Of a stretch of 44,836 nt of DNA, positions 1,084-6,776 are shown one piece after another (the stretch's first letter is position 1; each line of letters opens with the position of its first letter). A program made the translations under genes and the position numbers. The DNA comes from an uncultured Clostridia bacterium (GTDB lineage Bacteria; Bacillota; Clostridia; Oscillospirales; Ruminococcaceae), in contig CANRLU010000006.1 of assembly GCA_947631535.1 (NCBI GenBank), forward strand, positions 1-44,836, written 5' to 3'. Under the pieces are notes generated by a model. The model was given only the letters and a program-made list of their open reading frames with translations. It did not search any database and was not told the DNA's origin.

Positions 1084-1638
1084 TTATTCCTCACCGTTAT
1101 ACTGCCCGTTAAGGTAGCCGGTTATCCACACGAGGACCTCGGCATTGTCGAGCGGGACGTCTTCGCCCAAAACTTCGCGGAGCTCTTTGGTGTCGAGCTT
1201 CACGTCAAATTCCGGCGAGGTGTGCGTGAAGAGAAAATCTATATCGGGGTTGCCCTGAATAAGCGTTACCACCGACGAGCATATGTCCCCGAGAGGGGTC
1301 ATATCAATGTGGTTTTTATAGAACAGCGCGCGGGTAACGGTCCCGTGGTCGTCGGGCGAAAGCTCCTCGGCCTTAGACTCTATCGACATATTGCCGCCGG
1401 TCTGCTCGGCTTCGAGCTTTAAAAGCGGCAGCCCCAGCCCGACGGGGCGGGTAGTCCTTGTGGTGCAAAAAGGGTCGGTAACGTTTTTGAGGAACTCCGG
1501 AGTCATTCCGCAGCCGTCGTCCGAGATCTTAAGCTCAAGGGTCTCGTCGGTCTCGGTTATCGAAATGACGACGTTCTTCGCGCCCGCTTTTACGGAATTT
1601 TTGGCTATATCCAGAACGTTGAGCGAAAGCTCTTTCAA
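1084..1638 (-). CDS. GHKL-family ATP-binding protein (histidine-kinase-like ATPase)
   Basis: A 184-residue protein with a Bergerat ATP-binding fold and no sensor or phospho-acceptor domain. The N box is LNVLDIAKNSVKAGA, the G1 box is ISDDGCGM, and a G2-like segment reads RPVGLGLPLLK. About 70 further residues follow the ATPase fold and match no domain I can name. Stand-alone ATPases of this type are a constant feature of clostridial HydABC operons. A serine/threonine or histidine kinase role toward a partner is possible, but no partner residue can be read here. It lies 6 bases after the PHP gene, so the two are probably translated together. Confidence 0.85.
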   Translation of the reverse strand: MKELSLNVLDIAKNSVKAGAKNVVISITETDETLELKISDDGCGMTPEFLKNVTDPFCTTRTTRPVGLGLPLLKLEAEQTGGNMSIESKAEELSPDDHGTVTRALFYKNHIDMTPLGDICSSVVTLIQGNPDIDFLFTHTSPEFDVKLDTKELREVLGEDVPLDNAEVLVWITGYLNGQYNGEE

Positions 1639-1644
1639 AGCGGC

Positions 1645-2379
1645 TCACTCCCCTCTCAGTTTTTCAAAGAGCCTCTTTCTCACGAGCGCCGATGAATAGG
1701 GCTCGTCGTCGAGGTCAAAATAAGCGTCGGCATCGCGGATATCCCAGAGGTAATGCGCGTCGGAGCTTATAACTATCTGCTTATCCTTTAAAATCGGGTA
1801 TTTTTCGAGGTGCGGGGTTATCTTTTCCTTGTCGTGGAGCTCGGCGCAGGTGAACTTCGGATATTCCGGAAAAGTTCCGAGAACGGCAATGATTCCGTTC
1901 GCCTGGCGGTCGATATGTGCGGGGTAGCATATGCCCCCGTATTTTTTTACGACATCCGGCGCCTCGTCAACGGTTATCTCGGTCGCGTTGGGGAGCATAA
2001 ACTCATCGGTCCCGATAACGTTCTCTTCGTCGTCCATAATAAGTTGGTCTCCGAAGATATCTACCCTGTTGGGTATCCTTATCCTCCGCGAATCGACCTC
2101 TTCGCCGAATTCGAGGGCTTTTTCGAGCTCTTCAAACAGGCATACGACGTGAATGTCCTCGGCGGTGGTGAGCTCCATTCCCGCAACCGGTATAACTCCG
2201 TAGCGCTTGCAGGCCTTGAAAAAGGCGGGACAGTTTTTGACGGCGTTGTGGTCGGTAAGAGCCATTATCTGTATCCCCGCCAGCGTTGCCGTTCCCGCGA
2301 TGTTGGCGGGGGTCATATCGTTGTCGGCGCAGGGGGAGAGGCAGGAATGGATATGCAGATCGTAGTAATATCTGCTCAT
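1645..2379 (-). CDS. PHP-domain metal-dependent phosphoesterase
   Basis: A 244-residue PHP-superfamily protein. Near the N-terminus is the HxH motif of the trinuclear metal site (YDLHIHSCLSPC), followed by ALTDHNAV, then EL in GMELTT, HIDR in the middle, and SDAHYLWDI near the C-terminus. All major metal-binding motifs therefore appear present. PHP proteins hydrolyse phosphate esters of nucleotides or sugars; the substrate cannot be read from sequence. The start codon overlaps the stop of the DRTGG gene by four bases (ATGA), which indicates coupled translation. Its place in the hydrogenase operon between a DRTGG protein and an ATPase suggests a signalling or nucleotide-turnover role, which is inference. 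Confidence 0.87.
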   Translation of the reverse strand: MSRYYYDLHIHSCLSPCADNDMTPANIAGTATLAGIQIMALTDHNAVKNCPAFFKACKRYGVIPVAGMELTTAEDIHVVCLFEELEKALEFGEEVDSRRIRIPNRVDIFGDQLIMDDEENVIGTDEFMLPNATEITVDEAPDVVKKYGGICYPAHIDRQANGIIAVLGTFPEYPKFTCAELHDKEKITPHLEKYPILKDKQIVISSDAHYLWDIRDADAYFDLDDEPYSSALVRKRLFEKLRGE

Positions 2380-2702
2380 ACGAGACCGGCTATCGCTTTT
2401 GCCGCCTCAAAGGTGGGCACCGGCGCCGAAACAATGTTCACGCCCCGCTGCTCGGCGGTGCTGATGACGTTTTCTTCGAGCGCAACGTTCTCCGAGAGGA
2501 TAATAACCGCGGTGTCGCAAAGGGTCGCGACGGCGACGATGTTTATATTCGACATTATCGTTATCCACGCCTGACCCGAAGAAGCTCTGCCCATCACCCA
2601 GCTTAAAAGGTCGCCGCAGTAGCAGCCCGATACCTCGCGTTCCGGCTCCGGCAGACACACGGCCGCAAATCCGGTCTTCTCGCAAAGCTCTTTTACGGTC
2701 AT
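2376..2702 (-). CDS. DRTGG-domain protein (copy B)
   Basis: A 108-residue protein that looks like a stand-alone DRTGG domain. Typical features are the glycine-rich region GCYCGDLLSWVMG, the AWITIMSNINIVAVATLCD strand-helix, and the repeating AVIILSENVALEENVISTAEQRGVNI segment. DRTGG domains are thought to be ligand-sensing modules and also occur linked to CBS domains. It overlaps both neighbours by four bases: the stop of the HydS-like gene upstream and the start of the PHP gene downstream. The operon encodes a second, clearly related DRTGG protein at 4457-4810. Function is unknown; it may sense a nucleotide. Confidence 0.8.
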   Translation of the reverse strand: MTVKELCEKTGFAAVCLPEPEREVSGCYCGDLLSWVMGRASSGQAWITIMSNINIVAVATLCDTAVIILSENVALEENVISTAEQRGVNIVSAPVPTFEAAKAIAGLV

Positions 2703-4003
2703 ATTCCGCTCTCCTTCCGCTCAGAGGGGTCGAATTTTCTCACGGGCTCGCCGTTTTGCAGGCGGTGAGTTCTTATTATGCAGCTTTCGAGGCTGCGCTC
2801 GCCTTTGACGACGTCTTCGGCGAACGCGCGGCAGTTCGGCGCGCCGCAGGAGCCGCAGTCTATTCCGGGAAGTTCGTCTCTCAGCTTCTGAATGTCTGAC
2901 ATCATTCGCATCGACTCGCCTATCGAGCCGCCGAGGCGGTTCATCGGCTTATAGTCGGGAATGTCTTCAAAGAAGTATTCCGGCGGGATATATTTTTTGT
3001 CGTCGGTCAAGAAGTTCTGCGACACCGGCAGATAGCGCCGAAGCGTCTGGAGCCTCGCCTTTGCGATAAACGGGTTCTCGACGGTCATAACTCCGCCGAC
3101 GCAGCCGCCCGTGCAGGCGTTGAGCTCGATGAATTCGAGCTGCGGGATAGTTCCGTTCTCTATCTGGTCGAGCATCTCGACGACGTTCTCTATGCTGTCG
3201 GCCGCAAGGTATTTGTCGTTGAATATGGCGGTAGCCTCTCCGCCCGAAGCCGCCCAGCTTATGCCTATCATGCCCGAGTTTGAAACGGGCTGCGGGGTCT
3301 TGTCGCGGCTCATAAGATTGAGAAGTGAGAAGTAGATATCGCTCATCGAGACGACGAGGTCGATATTAGACTTATACTCGCCGAAGCCGTTCTTTACATA
3401 GCTGGTTTTCGCGGGGCAGGGGGAGATGAAGCATACGCCTATGTCTTCGTCCTTGAGCTCGGGGTGAGCGGCCTTGGCGCGCTTTCTCGCCTCTATCGCG
3501 GCTATCTCCATCGGCGGGAGGATAGGCAGAAGATTGTCTTTAAGATAGGGGAACCTGAGCGCTATCAGCCTCGCGATAACGGGGCAGGCCGAGCTTATGA
3601 CCGGCTTTTTTATGCCCTCGGTCTTAAGGTAAAGGCGGGTGTATTCCGAGACTATCTCCGCCGCCTGCGATACCTCATAGACGTCGTTGAAGCCCATATC
3701 CAAAAGGCCCTGCAAAACGTAATCGACGTCTTCGAGCCCCTCGAACTGGCCGTAAAGCGAAGGCGCAGGCAAAGCTATCCTCCACTTATAGTCGTAGAGG
3801 TGATCGAGCTTGTTGCAGGTAGCTATCTTTGCGTGGTGCTGACACACCCTTATGCACTCGCCGCAGTCGATGCAGCGGTCGGGGTTGATGACGGCGTGCC
3901 CGCCGTCCACTCTTATTGCCTCGGTGGGACAGCGCTTTATGCAGGTGGTGCAGCCTGTGCAGCGCGACTCGTCGAGCGATACCGAGTGTTCGTATGTATT
4001 CAT
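2699..4003 (-). CDS. hydS: HydS-like [FeFe]-hydrogenase homologue (putative sensory hydrogenase)
   Basis: A 434-residue protein. It opens with two 4Fe-4S ferredoxin motifs (C15,18,21,25 and C44,47,50,54), followed by an H-cluster domain and a C-terminal GIDCGSCGAPNC iron-sulfur motif. The four Cys that hold the H-cluster are present: C140 in SSACP, C196 in SPCPAK, and C297/C301 in NACTGGCVGG. The Cys next to the first ligand, which shuttles protons in catalytic enzymes (TSCCP), is Ala139 here. Loss of that Cys is described for the sensory-type HydS of Thermotoga maritima. Unlike that protein, this one shows no PAS domain after the last Fe-S motif. It is probably a redox or H2 sensor rather than the main hydrogenase, which is expected to be HydA. 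Confidence 0.85.
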   Translation of the reverse strand: MNTYEHSVSLDESRCTGCTTCIKRCPTEAIRVDGGHAVINPDRCIDCGECIRVCQHHAKIATCNKLDHLYDYKWRIALPAPSLYGQFEGLEDVDYVLQGLLDMGFNDVYEVSQAAEIVSEYTRLYLKTEGIKKPVISSACPVIARLIALRFPYLKDNLLPILPPMEIAAIEARKRAKAAHPELKDEDIGVCFISPCPAKTSYVKNGFGEYKSNIDLVVSMSDIYFSLLNLMSRDKTPQPVSNSGMIGISWAASGGEATAIFNDKYLAADSIENVVEMLDQIENGTIPQLEFIELNACTGGCVGGVMTVENPFIAKARLQTLRRYLPVSQNFLTDDKKYIPPEYFFEDIPDYKPMNRLGGSIGESMRMMSDIQKLRDELPGIDCGSCGAPNCRAFAEDVVKGERSLESCIIRTHRLQNGEPVRKFDPSERKESGI

Positions 4004-4037
4004 TATTTCACCACCATACTTCAGCGGCTTTACTTTA

Positions 4038-4460
4038 TCAGAAATTTACGCACATAGTGATCTTGGTACCCTTGCCGAGTTCCGTCTCTATGTCCATTTT
4101 ATCGGTATATCTTTTCATATTGGGCAGACCCATTCCCGCGCCGAATCCGAGCGACCTTATATTGTCGGGCGCGGTGGAATAGCCCTCTTTCATTGCGAGC
4201 TCTATATTGGGTATGCCGGGGCCGTGGTCGTTGAGGATTATCTCTATCCTGTCCTCATAGACCACAACGTCGGCCTCGCCGCCGTGGGCGTGAATGACCA
4301 TATTTATCTCGCCCTCGTACATGGCTATGGATACCCTTCTTATCACATCGGCGGGTATGCCGAGCTCGCGCAGGTTCTTTTTTACCTGCACGGAAGCCTG
4401 CCCCGCAGTGGTGAAATTAGAGCCGTCAACGTTGAAATGGAATCTCAGGGATTCGCTCAT
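4038..4460 (-). CDS. RsbW-like GHKL ATPase (anti-sigma-factor-type kinase)
   Basis: A 140-residue protein of the anti-sigma-factor serine kinase type. The N box is AMYEGEINMVIHAHGG, the G1 box is LNDHGPGIP, and the G2 loop is GFGAGMGLPNMKRY. The fold ends with KGTKITM. It differs from the other ATPase in the operon (1084-1638) in having no extra C-terminal region. In this family such proteins bind or phosphorylate a small partner. No STAS-domain antagonist or PP2C phosphatase is encoded in the window. Its ATG overlaps the stop of the upstream DRTGG gene by four bases, and the HydS-like gene starts 34 bases downstream, so the three are likely one functional block. Confidence 0.87.
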   Translation of the reverse strand: MSESLRFHFNVDGSNFTTAGQASVQVKKNLRELGIPADVIRRVSIAMYEGEINMVIHAHGGEADVVVYEDRIEIILNDHGPGIPNIELAMKEGYSTAPDNIRSLGFGAGMGLPNMKRYTDKMDIETELGKGTKITMCVNF

Positions 4461-4810
4461 GACCTCACTCCGTTTCCGACGAGCCCGCTCGTGTAGAGCA
4501 GGCCGCAGGCCTCATACATTCTCTTTTCGGTGCTCATAAGCACGATGCCGCTTTCGCGCGCAAGCTCGATCATATCGGGCGTGGGCTTTTTGGAGCGCAC
4601 GAACACTATGCACACCATATCCATCATCTCCGCGGTGCGTATCACCTGAGAGTTGACGAGCCCCGTCAAAAGCACCGCCTGGTCTTTTACGTAGGCCAGA
4701 ACGTCGCTCATCATATCGCTGCCGCAGGCGGAAAAAACGTCGTGCTCAAGATTTTCGTCGCCGCAGATAACATTTGCGTCCAAAAGGGAACGGATCGCTG
4801 AGATTTTCAT
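4457..4810 (-). CDS. DRTGG-domain protein (copy A)
   Basis: A 117-residue single DRTGG domain. It resembles copy B in layout: an early NVICGDENLEHDVFSACGSDMMSDVLAY region, then LTGLVNSQVIRTAEMMD and a final segment IELARESGIVLMSTEKRMYEAC. The length and lack of other domains argue for a small ligand-binding or adaptor protein. It is the second gene of the operon, directly after hydC, and its stop overlaps the start of the RsbW-like ATPase. Two DRTGG genes in one hydrogenase operon suggest that each works with one of the two ATPases, which is inference. Confidence 0.8.
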   Translation of the reverse strand: MKISAIRSLLDANVICGDENLEHDVFSACGSDMMSDVLAYVKDQAVLLTGLVNSQVIRTAEMMDMVCIVFVRSKKPTPDMIELARESGIVLMSTEKRMYEACGLLYTSGLVGNGVRS

Positions 4811-6211: not shown

Positions 6212-6776
6212 GAAGGAGTGAGAGAGGAAATGTCAAATTGAGCGGAAAACTAAAAGTTTTCGGTTGAGACTGTTATAAGAGACTTTCCGCCTGACGGGGG
6301 AGTTTTCGGCGGAGGCCGAGGTTTTTGCTTCCACACCCCCTGCCCCCTCTCCCTCATAGAGGAAGAGGGCAAGCGACGCTCCAACTGTGTTGCCTTCCCC
6401 TGCTAAACTCTGCCAAGCGGGGGCCGCTCCTTTGCCTTGGGCGGCAAAAGTCGGCGCACTCTTTCGGGTCGAGAGCGAAGCGAACGACAAATGCGGCGTG
6501 ACTATGATACCTCCCCTGCTAAACTCTGCCAAGCGGGAACCGCTCATTTGCCTTGGGCGGCAAAAGTCGGCGCACTCTTTCGGGTCGAGAGCGAAGCGAA
6601 CGACAGATGCGGCGTGACTATGACACCTCCCCTGCTAAACTCTGCCAAGCGGGAACCGCTCATTTGCCTTGGGCGGCAAAAGTCGGCGCACTCTTTCGGG
6701 GCGAGAGCGAAGCGAACGACAGATGCGGCGTGACTATGATACCTTTTTTCGACGCCGCATTGGCGCCGCATTATTG
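6212..6776. other. Long spacer between nth and secA
   Basis: No gene is supported in this stretch. It begins with an AT-rich end near the nth promoter, then a GC-rich segment (6290-6395) with a CCCTCT...AGAGGAAGAGGG inverted motif. Three 116-bp tandem repeats (6396-6743) and a TTTTTTC tract next to a GGCGCC palindrome follow. The ORFs listed here are chance reading frames through the repeats, because the 116-bp unit is not a multiple of three. Confidence 0.7.
6396..6743. repeat. Three tandem copies of a 116-bp repeat
   Basis: The copies span 6396-6511, 6512-6627 and 6628-6743, each starting TCCCCTGCTAAACTCTGCC and ending in ATGAYACC. Copies 2 and 3 differ at only two bases; copy 1 differs from copy 2 mainly in GCGGGGGCCGCTCC versus GCGGGAACCGCTCA. 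Each unit contains a short hairpin AGCGG-NNN-CCGCT and a TGCC/GGCA inverted pair. The near identity suggests recent amplification. The function is unknown: it could be a non-coding RNA unit or a genome-wide interspersed element. Confidence 0.93.

Follow-up and report, generated by a model that had tools for sequence, protein, structure and literature searches.

Group D (M2e) sensory [FeFe]-hydrogenases have been described through TamHydS of Thermoanaerobacter mathranii, a protein of Fer4-H-domain-FeS architecture that lacks a PAS domain, is altered at the second-sphere positions C299 and M353, and has a bifurcating group A hydrogenase encoded alongside it and a histidine-kinase-like ATPase as its neighbour (PMC8163306, PMC13104023). 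Group D HydS proteins, their bifurcating-hydrogenase neighbours and the flanking ATPase were already on record (PMC8163306), and both papers, one of them from 2026, leave open how group D HydS signals and which proteins it interacts with (PMC8163306, PMC13104023). For TamHydS, H2 activity was measured after addition of a synthetic [2Fe]adt cofactor (PMC8163306), so that this activity does not establish the presence of such a cofactor on HydS in vivo. We analyzed a stretch of 44,836 nucleotides from an uncultured Clostridia bacterium of the Ruminococcaceae (GCA_947631535.1, contig CANRLU010000006.1, positions 1 to 44,836; hereafter ‘the window’) in which a HydS-like gene lies within a block of six genes on the minus strand (4810–1084). 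A preliminary description made from the sequence alone had placed two DRTGG proteins, an RsbW-like ATPase, a HydS-like protein, a PHP phosphoesterase and a second GHKL ATPase there, and both the six open reading frames (ORFs) and the domain searches agree with it. With moderate confidence, we read the block as a redox/energy-status (redox/adenylate) signalling cassette for ferredoxin-linked complexes that contain a 51-kDa-type NADH flavoprotein (HydB/BfuB, RnfC), and not specifically as an H2 sensor.

Several described systems share parts of this arrangement. The DRTGG/RsbW/PHP/GHKL block, its formate dehydrogenase (Fdh) or Rnf settings and its presence in genomes without maturases have no counterpart in the available portions of the TamHydS descriptions (PMC8163306, PMC13104023). 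Group C HydS proteins (TmHydS of T. maritima, PMC10055695; that of Ruminococcus albus, PMC6776011) likewise have an H-domain, a presumed sensory role and signal-transduction neighbours; however, they carry PAS and, in Ruminococcus albus, a Ser/Thr phosphatase (PMC6776011), whereas the block contains no PAS or PP2C domain and has instead the RsbW-like, PHP and GHKL proteins and two DRTGG proteins. Regulatory neighbours of the C. thermocellum hydrogenases have also been mentioned (PMC3492117). The HydABC-type operon of A. mobile includes the non-subunit genes HisK and HydD, which match the GHKL gene and the small ferredoxin by name and position, but the block adds DRTGG, RsbW, HydS and PHP (PMC8880783). 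Searches of the open-access literature turned up no account of the six-gene cassette or its fusions, of Fdh or Rnf versions, or of HydS in maturase-less genomes, and nothing on DRTGG with hydrogenase or on such a cassette with Rnf, CBS or anti-sigma; nor did they yield a description of the mechanism, as had been supposed.

Scanning genomes with HydS gave 590 candidate stretches that were confirmed, from which the 80 nearest loci were kept, and wider contexts were drawn from 79 neighbourhoods in a sample of Bacillota_A genomes; locus L201, a filler of 100 bases, was left out. Genes in the compared loci were called with a simple ORF picker; many of the genomes are drafts, and some single-contig genomes are frameshifted (L125, L139, L171). 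The order DRTGG-A, RsbW-like, HydS, DRTGG-B, PHP, GHKL is kept in 80/80 of the nearest HydS loci as far as their contigs reach, including those in Coriobacteriia/Atopobiaceae metagenome-assembled genomes (MAGs), and in L068 and L080 hydC is inserted between PHP and GHKL. The preliminary description had given the arrangement as recurrent in clostridia and had named absence of synteny in relatives as an observation that would count against it; all 80 loci proved syntenic, and the finding survives as a conserved, signalling-like multi-gene block with a HydS-like protein that is also present in Coriobacteriia MAGs. The block is far from a chance arrangement. The DRTGG-A profile matches 174 of the 399 sampled Bacillota_A genomes, which sets a ceiling on the frequency of the block, since the profile can also pick up other DRTGG proteins. 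Three pairs of genes in the window overlap by ATGA, again as described earlier (4457–4460, DRTGG-A/RsbW-like; 2699–2702, HydS/DRTGG-B; 2376–2379, DRTGG-B/PHP), and the PHP and GHKL genes, separated here by 6 bp, frequently overlap in relatives. Rex, an NADH-responsive repressor, is encoded directly upstream of DRTGG-A in several families, with frames that sometimes touch or overlap, and RseC adjoins GHKL in L176.

Three complexes are encoded downstream of the block: HydABC, a selenocysteine formate dehydrogenase on a HydBC core, and Rnf. The formate dehydrogenase replaces HydA directly in L114, L121, L123, L125, L174 and L198 and lies in a neighbouring divergent operon in L152, L165, L195 and L196; in 10/10 cases an in-frame UGA splits it into two ORFs within the motif DHCARL-U-H, where the UGA would be the expected selenocysteine. 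Rnf-type loci occur with HydS (L172, L184) and without it (L144, L146). On a tree of 50 HydS sequences (built by a quick method and partly unresolved) the target type changes at least 6 times and maturase presence 8 times, and one family contains, as sisters, an Fdh-type locus without HydG (L114) and a HydA-type locus with HydG (L167). The block is thus not tied to hydrogenase. HydB and RnfC have the Complex1_51K domain in common, and the small ferredoxin that follows GHKL and precedes hydB stands before rnfC in L144, L146 and L172. Because ferredoxin/NADH chemistry at a 51-kDa flavoprotein is the common denominator of the targets, a redox/adenylate cassette is favoured over a sensor of H2, an assembly or repair machine and a partner-switching system. 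The first of these is the published group D hypothesis, by which HydS with a complete H-cluster would bind H2 and pass the signal on to the hydrogenase operon by way of the DRTGG proteins and the ATPases; it fits the predominance of HydA-type loci (48/64 classified), but not the blocks that adjoin formate dehydrogenase or Rnf.

The wider contexts included reduced versions of the block. L145, L147 and L149 encode DRTGG-A, CBS-RsbW, DRTGG-B, PHP and GHKL without HydS, with no HydABC, Fdh or Rnf recognised nearby; the gene next to the block in L145 looks like a cell-wall amidase. In L194 and L113, DRTGG-A and RsbW occur without HydS upstream of formate-tetrahydrofolate ligase and RnfC-like genes, a Wood-Ljungdahl setting (neighbours assigned by Pfam in L194 and by similar gene sizes in L113).

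The HydA proteins of most block operons (e.g. L004:13039-14793) have Ser at CpI C300, a [4Fe-4S]H ligand, and Cys in place of the Ala of SSAKSP. The two changes covary in nearly all cases (C300/A in L120, L175, L177 and L191; S/A in L168), which suggests a ligand swap, and the same Ser/Cys pair is present in A. woodii HydA1 (PDB 7q4v).

The complete H-cluster, with its [2Fe] subcluster, requires the maturases HydE, HydF and HydG. HydG scored over cut-off in 55 of the 80 genomes searched (six of the window's genus, the rest carrying the DRTGG-A profile), and the genomes without HydG also lack HydF, except G338, which has HydE and HydF. Outside the window's genus, neither HydF nor HydG was detected in at least 15 genomes that carry HydS, among them the 98% complete, single-contig G235 and the 99% complete G052 (3 contigs), a distribution that speaks against a general role in sensing H2. 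HydG was absent from 8/10 Fdh-type but only 3/40 HydA-type loci (Fisher p = 1.2e-5, with the window's genus left out, G338 counted as positive and relatedness ignored). Since some carriers lack the known genes for a working hydrogen sensor, the unit probably senses redox and energy state, and not hydrogen as such, and the best reading of HydS within the cassette is an Fe-S sensor that is not obliged to carry the diiron cofactor.

None of HydE, HydF and HydG was detected in the genome of the window itself. Across its genus (G000, G399-G410 and G419-G425; loci L227-L234) no HydG was found in any member searched, no HydF in 18 others and no HydE in 12 others. HydS is present in 13 of the 21 members and HydABC in many, and the [2Fe]-site residues of HydA are intact where they could be read. 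An H-cluster-free, BfuA-like HydA is unsupported in this genus, given those residues, and their retention leaves the missing maturases unexplained: either the genes are systematically missing from these MAGs, or the H-cluster is made or acquired otherwise, or the proteins work without it. One member, G410, encodes two further [FeFe]-hydrogenase-like proteins (L235). The ‘H-cluster sensor’ of the preliminary description is accordingly weakened and, for the window's genome, an unproven label; the HydS-like protein is there, but the block persists beside other complexes and in genomes where maturases go undetected.

HydS itself (434 residues; 4003–2699) comprises an N-terminus with two [4Fe-4S] clusters (PF00037, Fer4), an H-domain (PF02906, Fe_hyd_lg_C) and a C-terminal FeS domain (PF04060), and has no PAS domain by Pfam. 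Its four H-site cysteines (C140/C196/C297/C301) are kept in 152/152 sequences, and all N- and C-terminal cysteines in 151/152. The window protein has Ala at the position of CpI C299, and nearly all relatives have A/S at position 299 and S/T at position 353; at the M497 position the window protein has Asn, relatives have N, Q, L, D or others, and TamHydS has Leu. By these features HydS resembles group D in architecture, H-site cysteines, loss of C299 and a hydroxyl residue at M353, and departs from it at M497, where Leu as a group-wide trait is uncertain. This TamHydS/M2e-type make-up, with its C-terminal FeS domain, absent PAS and C299A- and M353S-type substitutions, together with retention of the K358 equivalent in 150/152 sequences, speaks for the published H2-sensor hypothesis, which we nevertheless consider doubtful. 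The L128 protein was considered as TamHydS itself and rejected, since the two agree at C20 but not at C379 (C387 in L128). No loss of H-domain cysteines was found in the genomes without detected maturases, the four being retained throughout. Relaxation of the [2Fe] pocket amounts to a slight erosion and a weak trend only, the K358 equivalent being present in 21/23 HydG-less versus 48/48 HydG-bearing genomes and W250 in 20/23 versus 48/48.

Natural fusions join DRTGG-A to the RsbW-like ATPase (6 loci; L133-L137, L139), PHP to GHKL (4 loci of one family; L152, L165, L195, L196), HydS to DRTGG-B (L170) and GHKL to the ferredoxin (L117). The RsbW-like protein bears a long N-terminal extension in L127, L144-L147, L149, L172, L188 and L192, which Pfam identifies as a CBS pair in L145 and L172; the other extended sequences inspected look alike. 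The preliminary description had proposed two kinase/ligand-domain pairs around the sensor, and we reject this arrangement because the fusions pair DRTGG-A with RsbW, HydS with DRTGG-B, and PHP with GHKL, and because the model of the GHKL protein is closest to MutL/PMS2. Contacts between the proteins are deduced here from these fusions and from operon order.

The DRTGG-A (117 residues; 4810–4457) and DRTGG-B (108 residues; 2702–2376) proteins both score over cut-off for PF07085. D32/S35/T49/Q55 are near-invariant among 161 DRTGG-A sequences and D31/S34/T48/N54 are present in 129/129 DRTGG-B sequences; the shared D-x-x-S...T signature is consistent with the same kind of ligand. CBS and DRTGG modules are paired in CBS-DRTGG inorganic pyrophosphatases (PRK14869), a family to which DRTGG-A has a weak score; unlike those enzymes, the block pairs the modules across separate or fused proteins and has a GHKL ATPase as effector.

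The RsbW/SpoIIAB-like ATPase (140 residues; 4460–4038; PF13581/PF02518, HATPase_c_2/HATPase_c) matches the SpoIIAB PDB chains 1tid/1til at 1e-7 and shares with the SpoIIAB/RsbW anti-sigma kinases the fold and the N-box, G1 and G2 residues that serve ATP binding and phosphotransfer: Glu49 is kept in 162/163 and Asn53 in 163/163 sequences, and D78, G80, G82 and G105-G111 are invariant. That its nearest solved and named relative is SpoIIAB, with the catalytic Glu and Asn of the N-box retained, would suit a partner-switching system in which the kinase phosphorylates a STAS antagonist and a sigma factor is freed. However, every NCBIfam match falls below cut-off (the best, spIIAB, reaches 60 bits against 135 required, and RsbW 29 against 145), and the ATPase keeps company with DRTGG/CBS and not with STAS, PP2C or sigma genes, none of which appeared among the limited set of Pfam-annotated neighbours. 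SpoIIE-type phosphatase domains are likewise not beside the block, although they are present elsewhere in the window's genome (contigs C123 and C57). We regard partner switching as very improbable.

The second GHKL ATPase (184 residues; 1638–1084, TTG start; PF02518, HATPase_c) occupies the place of the HisK-like operon gene. It consists of an ATPase domain and a C-terminal alpha/beta domain, with no DHp/phospho-His domain, and has an Asp/Asn N-box (D10/N14 in 146/146). The nearest PDB folds to its AF2 model (pLDDT 91.1) are N-terminal fragments of PMS2/MutL, so that the predicted structure resembles MutL/PMS2 more than a histidine kinase, and the latter label was rejected. The PHP-domain phosphoesterase (244 residues; 2379–1645; PF02811) keeps its putative metal ligands H9, H11, H44, E69, H77, H155, D207 and H209 in 147-150 of 150 sequences and Cys17 in 150/150, and its AF2 model (pLDDT 95.8) gave Foldseek matches to EndoQ, RNase AM and 2yb1. 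The MutL-type look of the GHKL model brings in a further possibility, an assembly, activation or repair machine in which the two ATPases would serve as chaperones or clamps powered by ATP and assist in inserting or protecting Fe-S/FMN cofactors, HydS and the ferredoxin would donate electrons, and PHP would act in processing. No DNA-binding output gene lies inside the block, and for HydD, HydP and HisK beside NiFe-HydABCSL of A. mobile a role in maturation and/or regulation has been assumed (PMC8880783). Such a machine is unlikely in our view: the CBS/DRTGG input to the RsbW-like ATPase suggests regulation instead, HydS-less versions lie away from all three complexes (L145, L147), and the DRTGG-A family is absent from about half of the sampled Bacillota_A genomes.

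Read as a redox/adenylate cassette, the block would couple sensing by HydS, DRTGG and CBS to ATP-driven switching by the RsbW-like and GHKL proteins and to a metallo-phosphoesterase. HydS would be reduced by ferredoxin at its N-terminal [4Fe-4S] clusters and report redox state to DRTGG-B; where a complete H-cluster can be assembled, it might report H2 as well. An adenine-nucleotide signal may enter the RsbW-like ATPase from DRTGG-A, or from the CBS pair on some RsbW homologues, and the ATPase would act as a protein kinase or as a switch gated by ATP. The arm that acts on the NADH-flavoprotein complex, for output or reset, could then consist of PHP, GHKL and the small ferredoxin, with the likely consequence that the operon's own complex is adjusted in activity and/or expression (Rex being directly upstream in some families). 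A bolder version, which we put forward tentatively, is that what is called the group D ‘sensory hydrogenase’ senses ferredoxin redox state with [4Fe-4S] clusters alone, within a portable six-gene cassette with redox and adenylate input that controls any 51-kDa NADH flavoprotein complex (HydABC, bifurcating formate dehydrogenase or Rnf), H2 sensing being later or optional.

Several points weigh against a redox/adenylate cassette. The maturase absences are profile-search calls in largely draft genomes, where ‘not found’ is not proof, and conservation of the [2Fe] pocket suggests that some HydG-less genomes may still build, or once built, the H-cluster. HydA-type loci being the commonest of those classified, many species may respond chiefly to H2. 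Nucleotide binding by DRTGG and CBS is proposed by family analogy, and we infer the ligands, phosphotransfer, output and targets of the block.

The block is preceded by hydC/BfuC (5350–4847, minus strand), the first gene of the operon in the window, which encodes a NuoE-like thioredoxin-type [2Fe-2S] subunit (Pfam 2Fe-2S_thioredx, 1.1e-50) and is the same neighbour in relatives. It is followed by a thioredoxin-like [2Fe-2S] ferredoxin in a HydD/TM1420-like position (1031–663, minus strand; PF01257, 3.7e-6; NCBIfam fdxn_Clost) and by the N-terminal part of hydB/BfuB (632–3, minus strand), the 51-kDa NADH/FMN subunit (PF01257 and PF01512), which is cut by the window edge. The contig stops within hydB, hydA lies outside the window, and a search of the assembly gave no second H-domain protein; in close relatives (L004-L005, L227-L234) hydA comes next. 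The earlier placement in a bifurcating [FeFe]-hydrogenase operon is thus borne out for the flanking hydC, ferredoxin and hydB genes, while the label as a whole rests on those relatives because the window's contig lacks hydA. Elsewhere in the window, near-identical direct repeats of ~116 bp (cctcccctgctaaactctgccaagcggg...) were spotted by eye between nth and secA (6340–6760).

The fusions name partners that can be tested directly, namely HydS with DRTGG-B, DRTGG-A with the RsbW-like ATPase, and PHP with GHKL. That HydS is retained where maturases go undetected, and next to formate dehydrogenase or Rnf, calls its assumed role as an H2 sensor into question, and electron flow in anaerobic bacteria, those of the gut included, may be controlled widely through the cassette.

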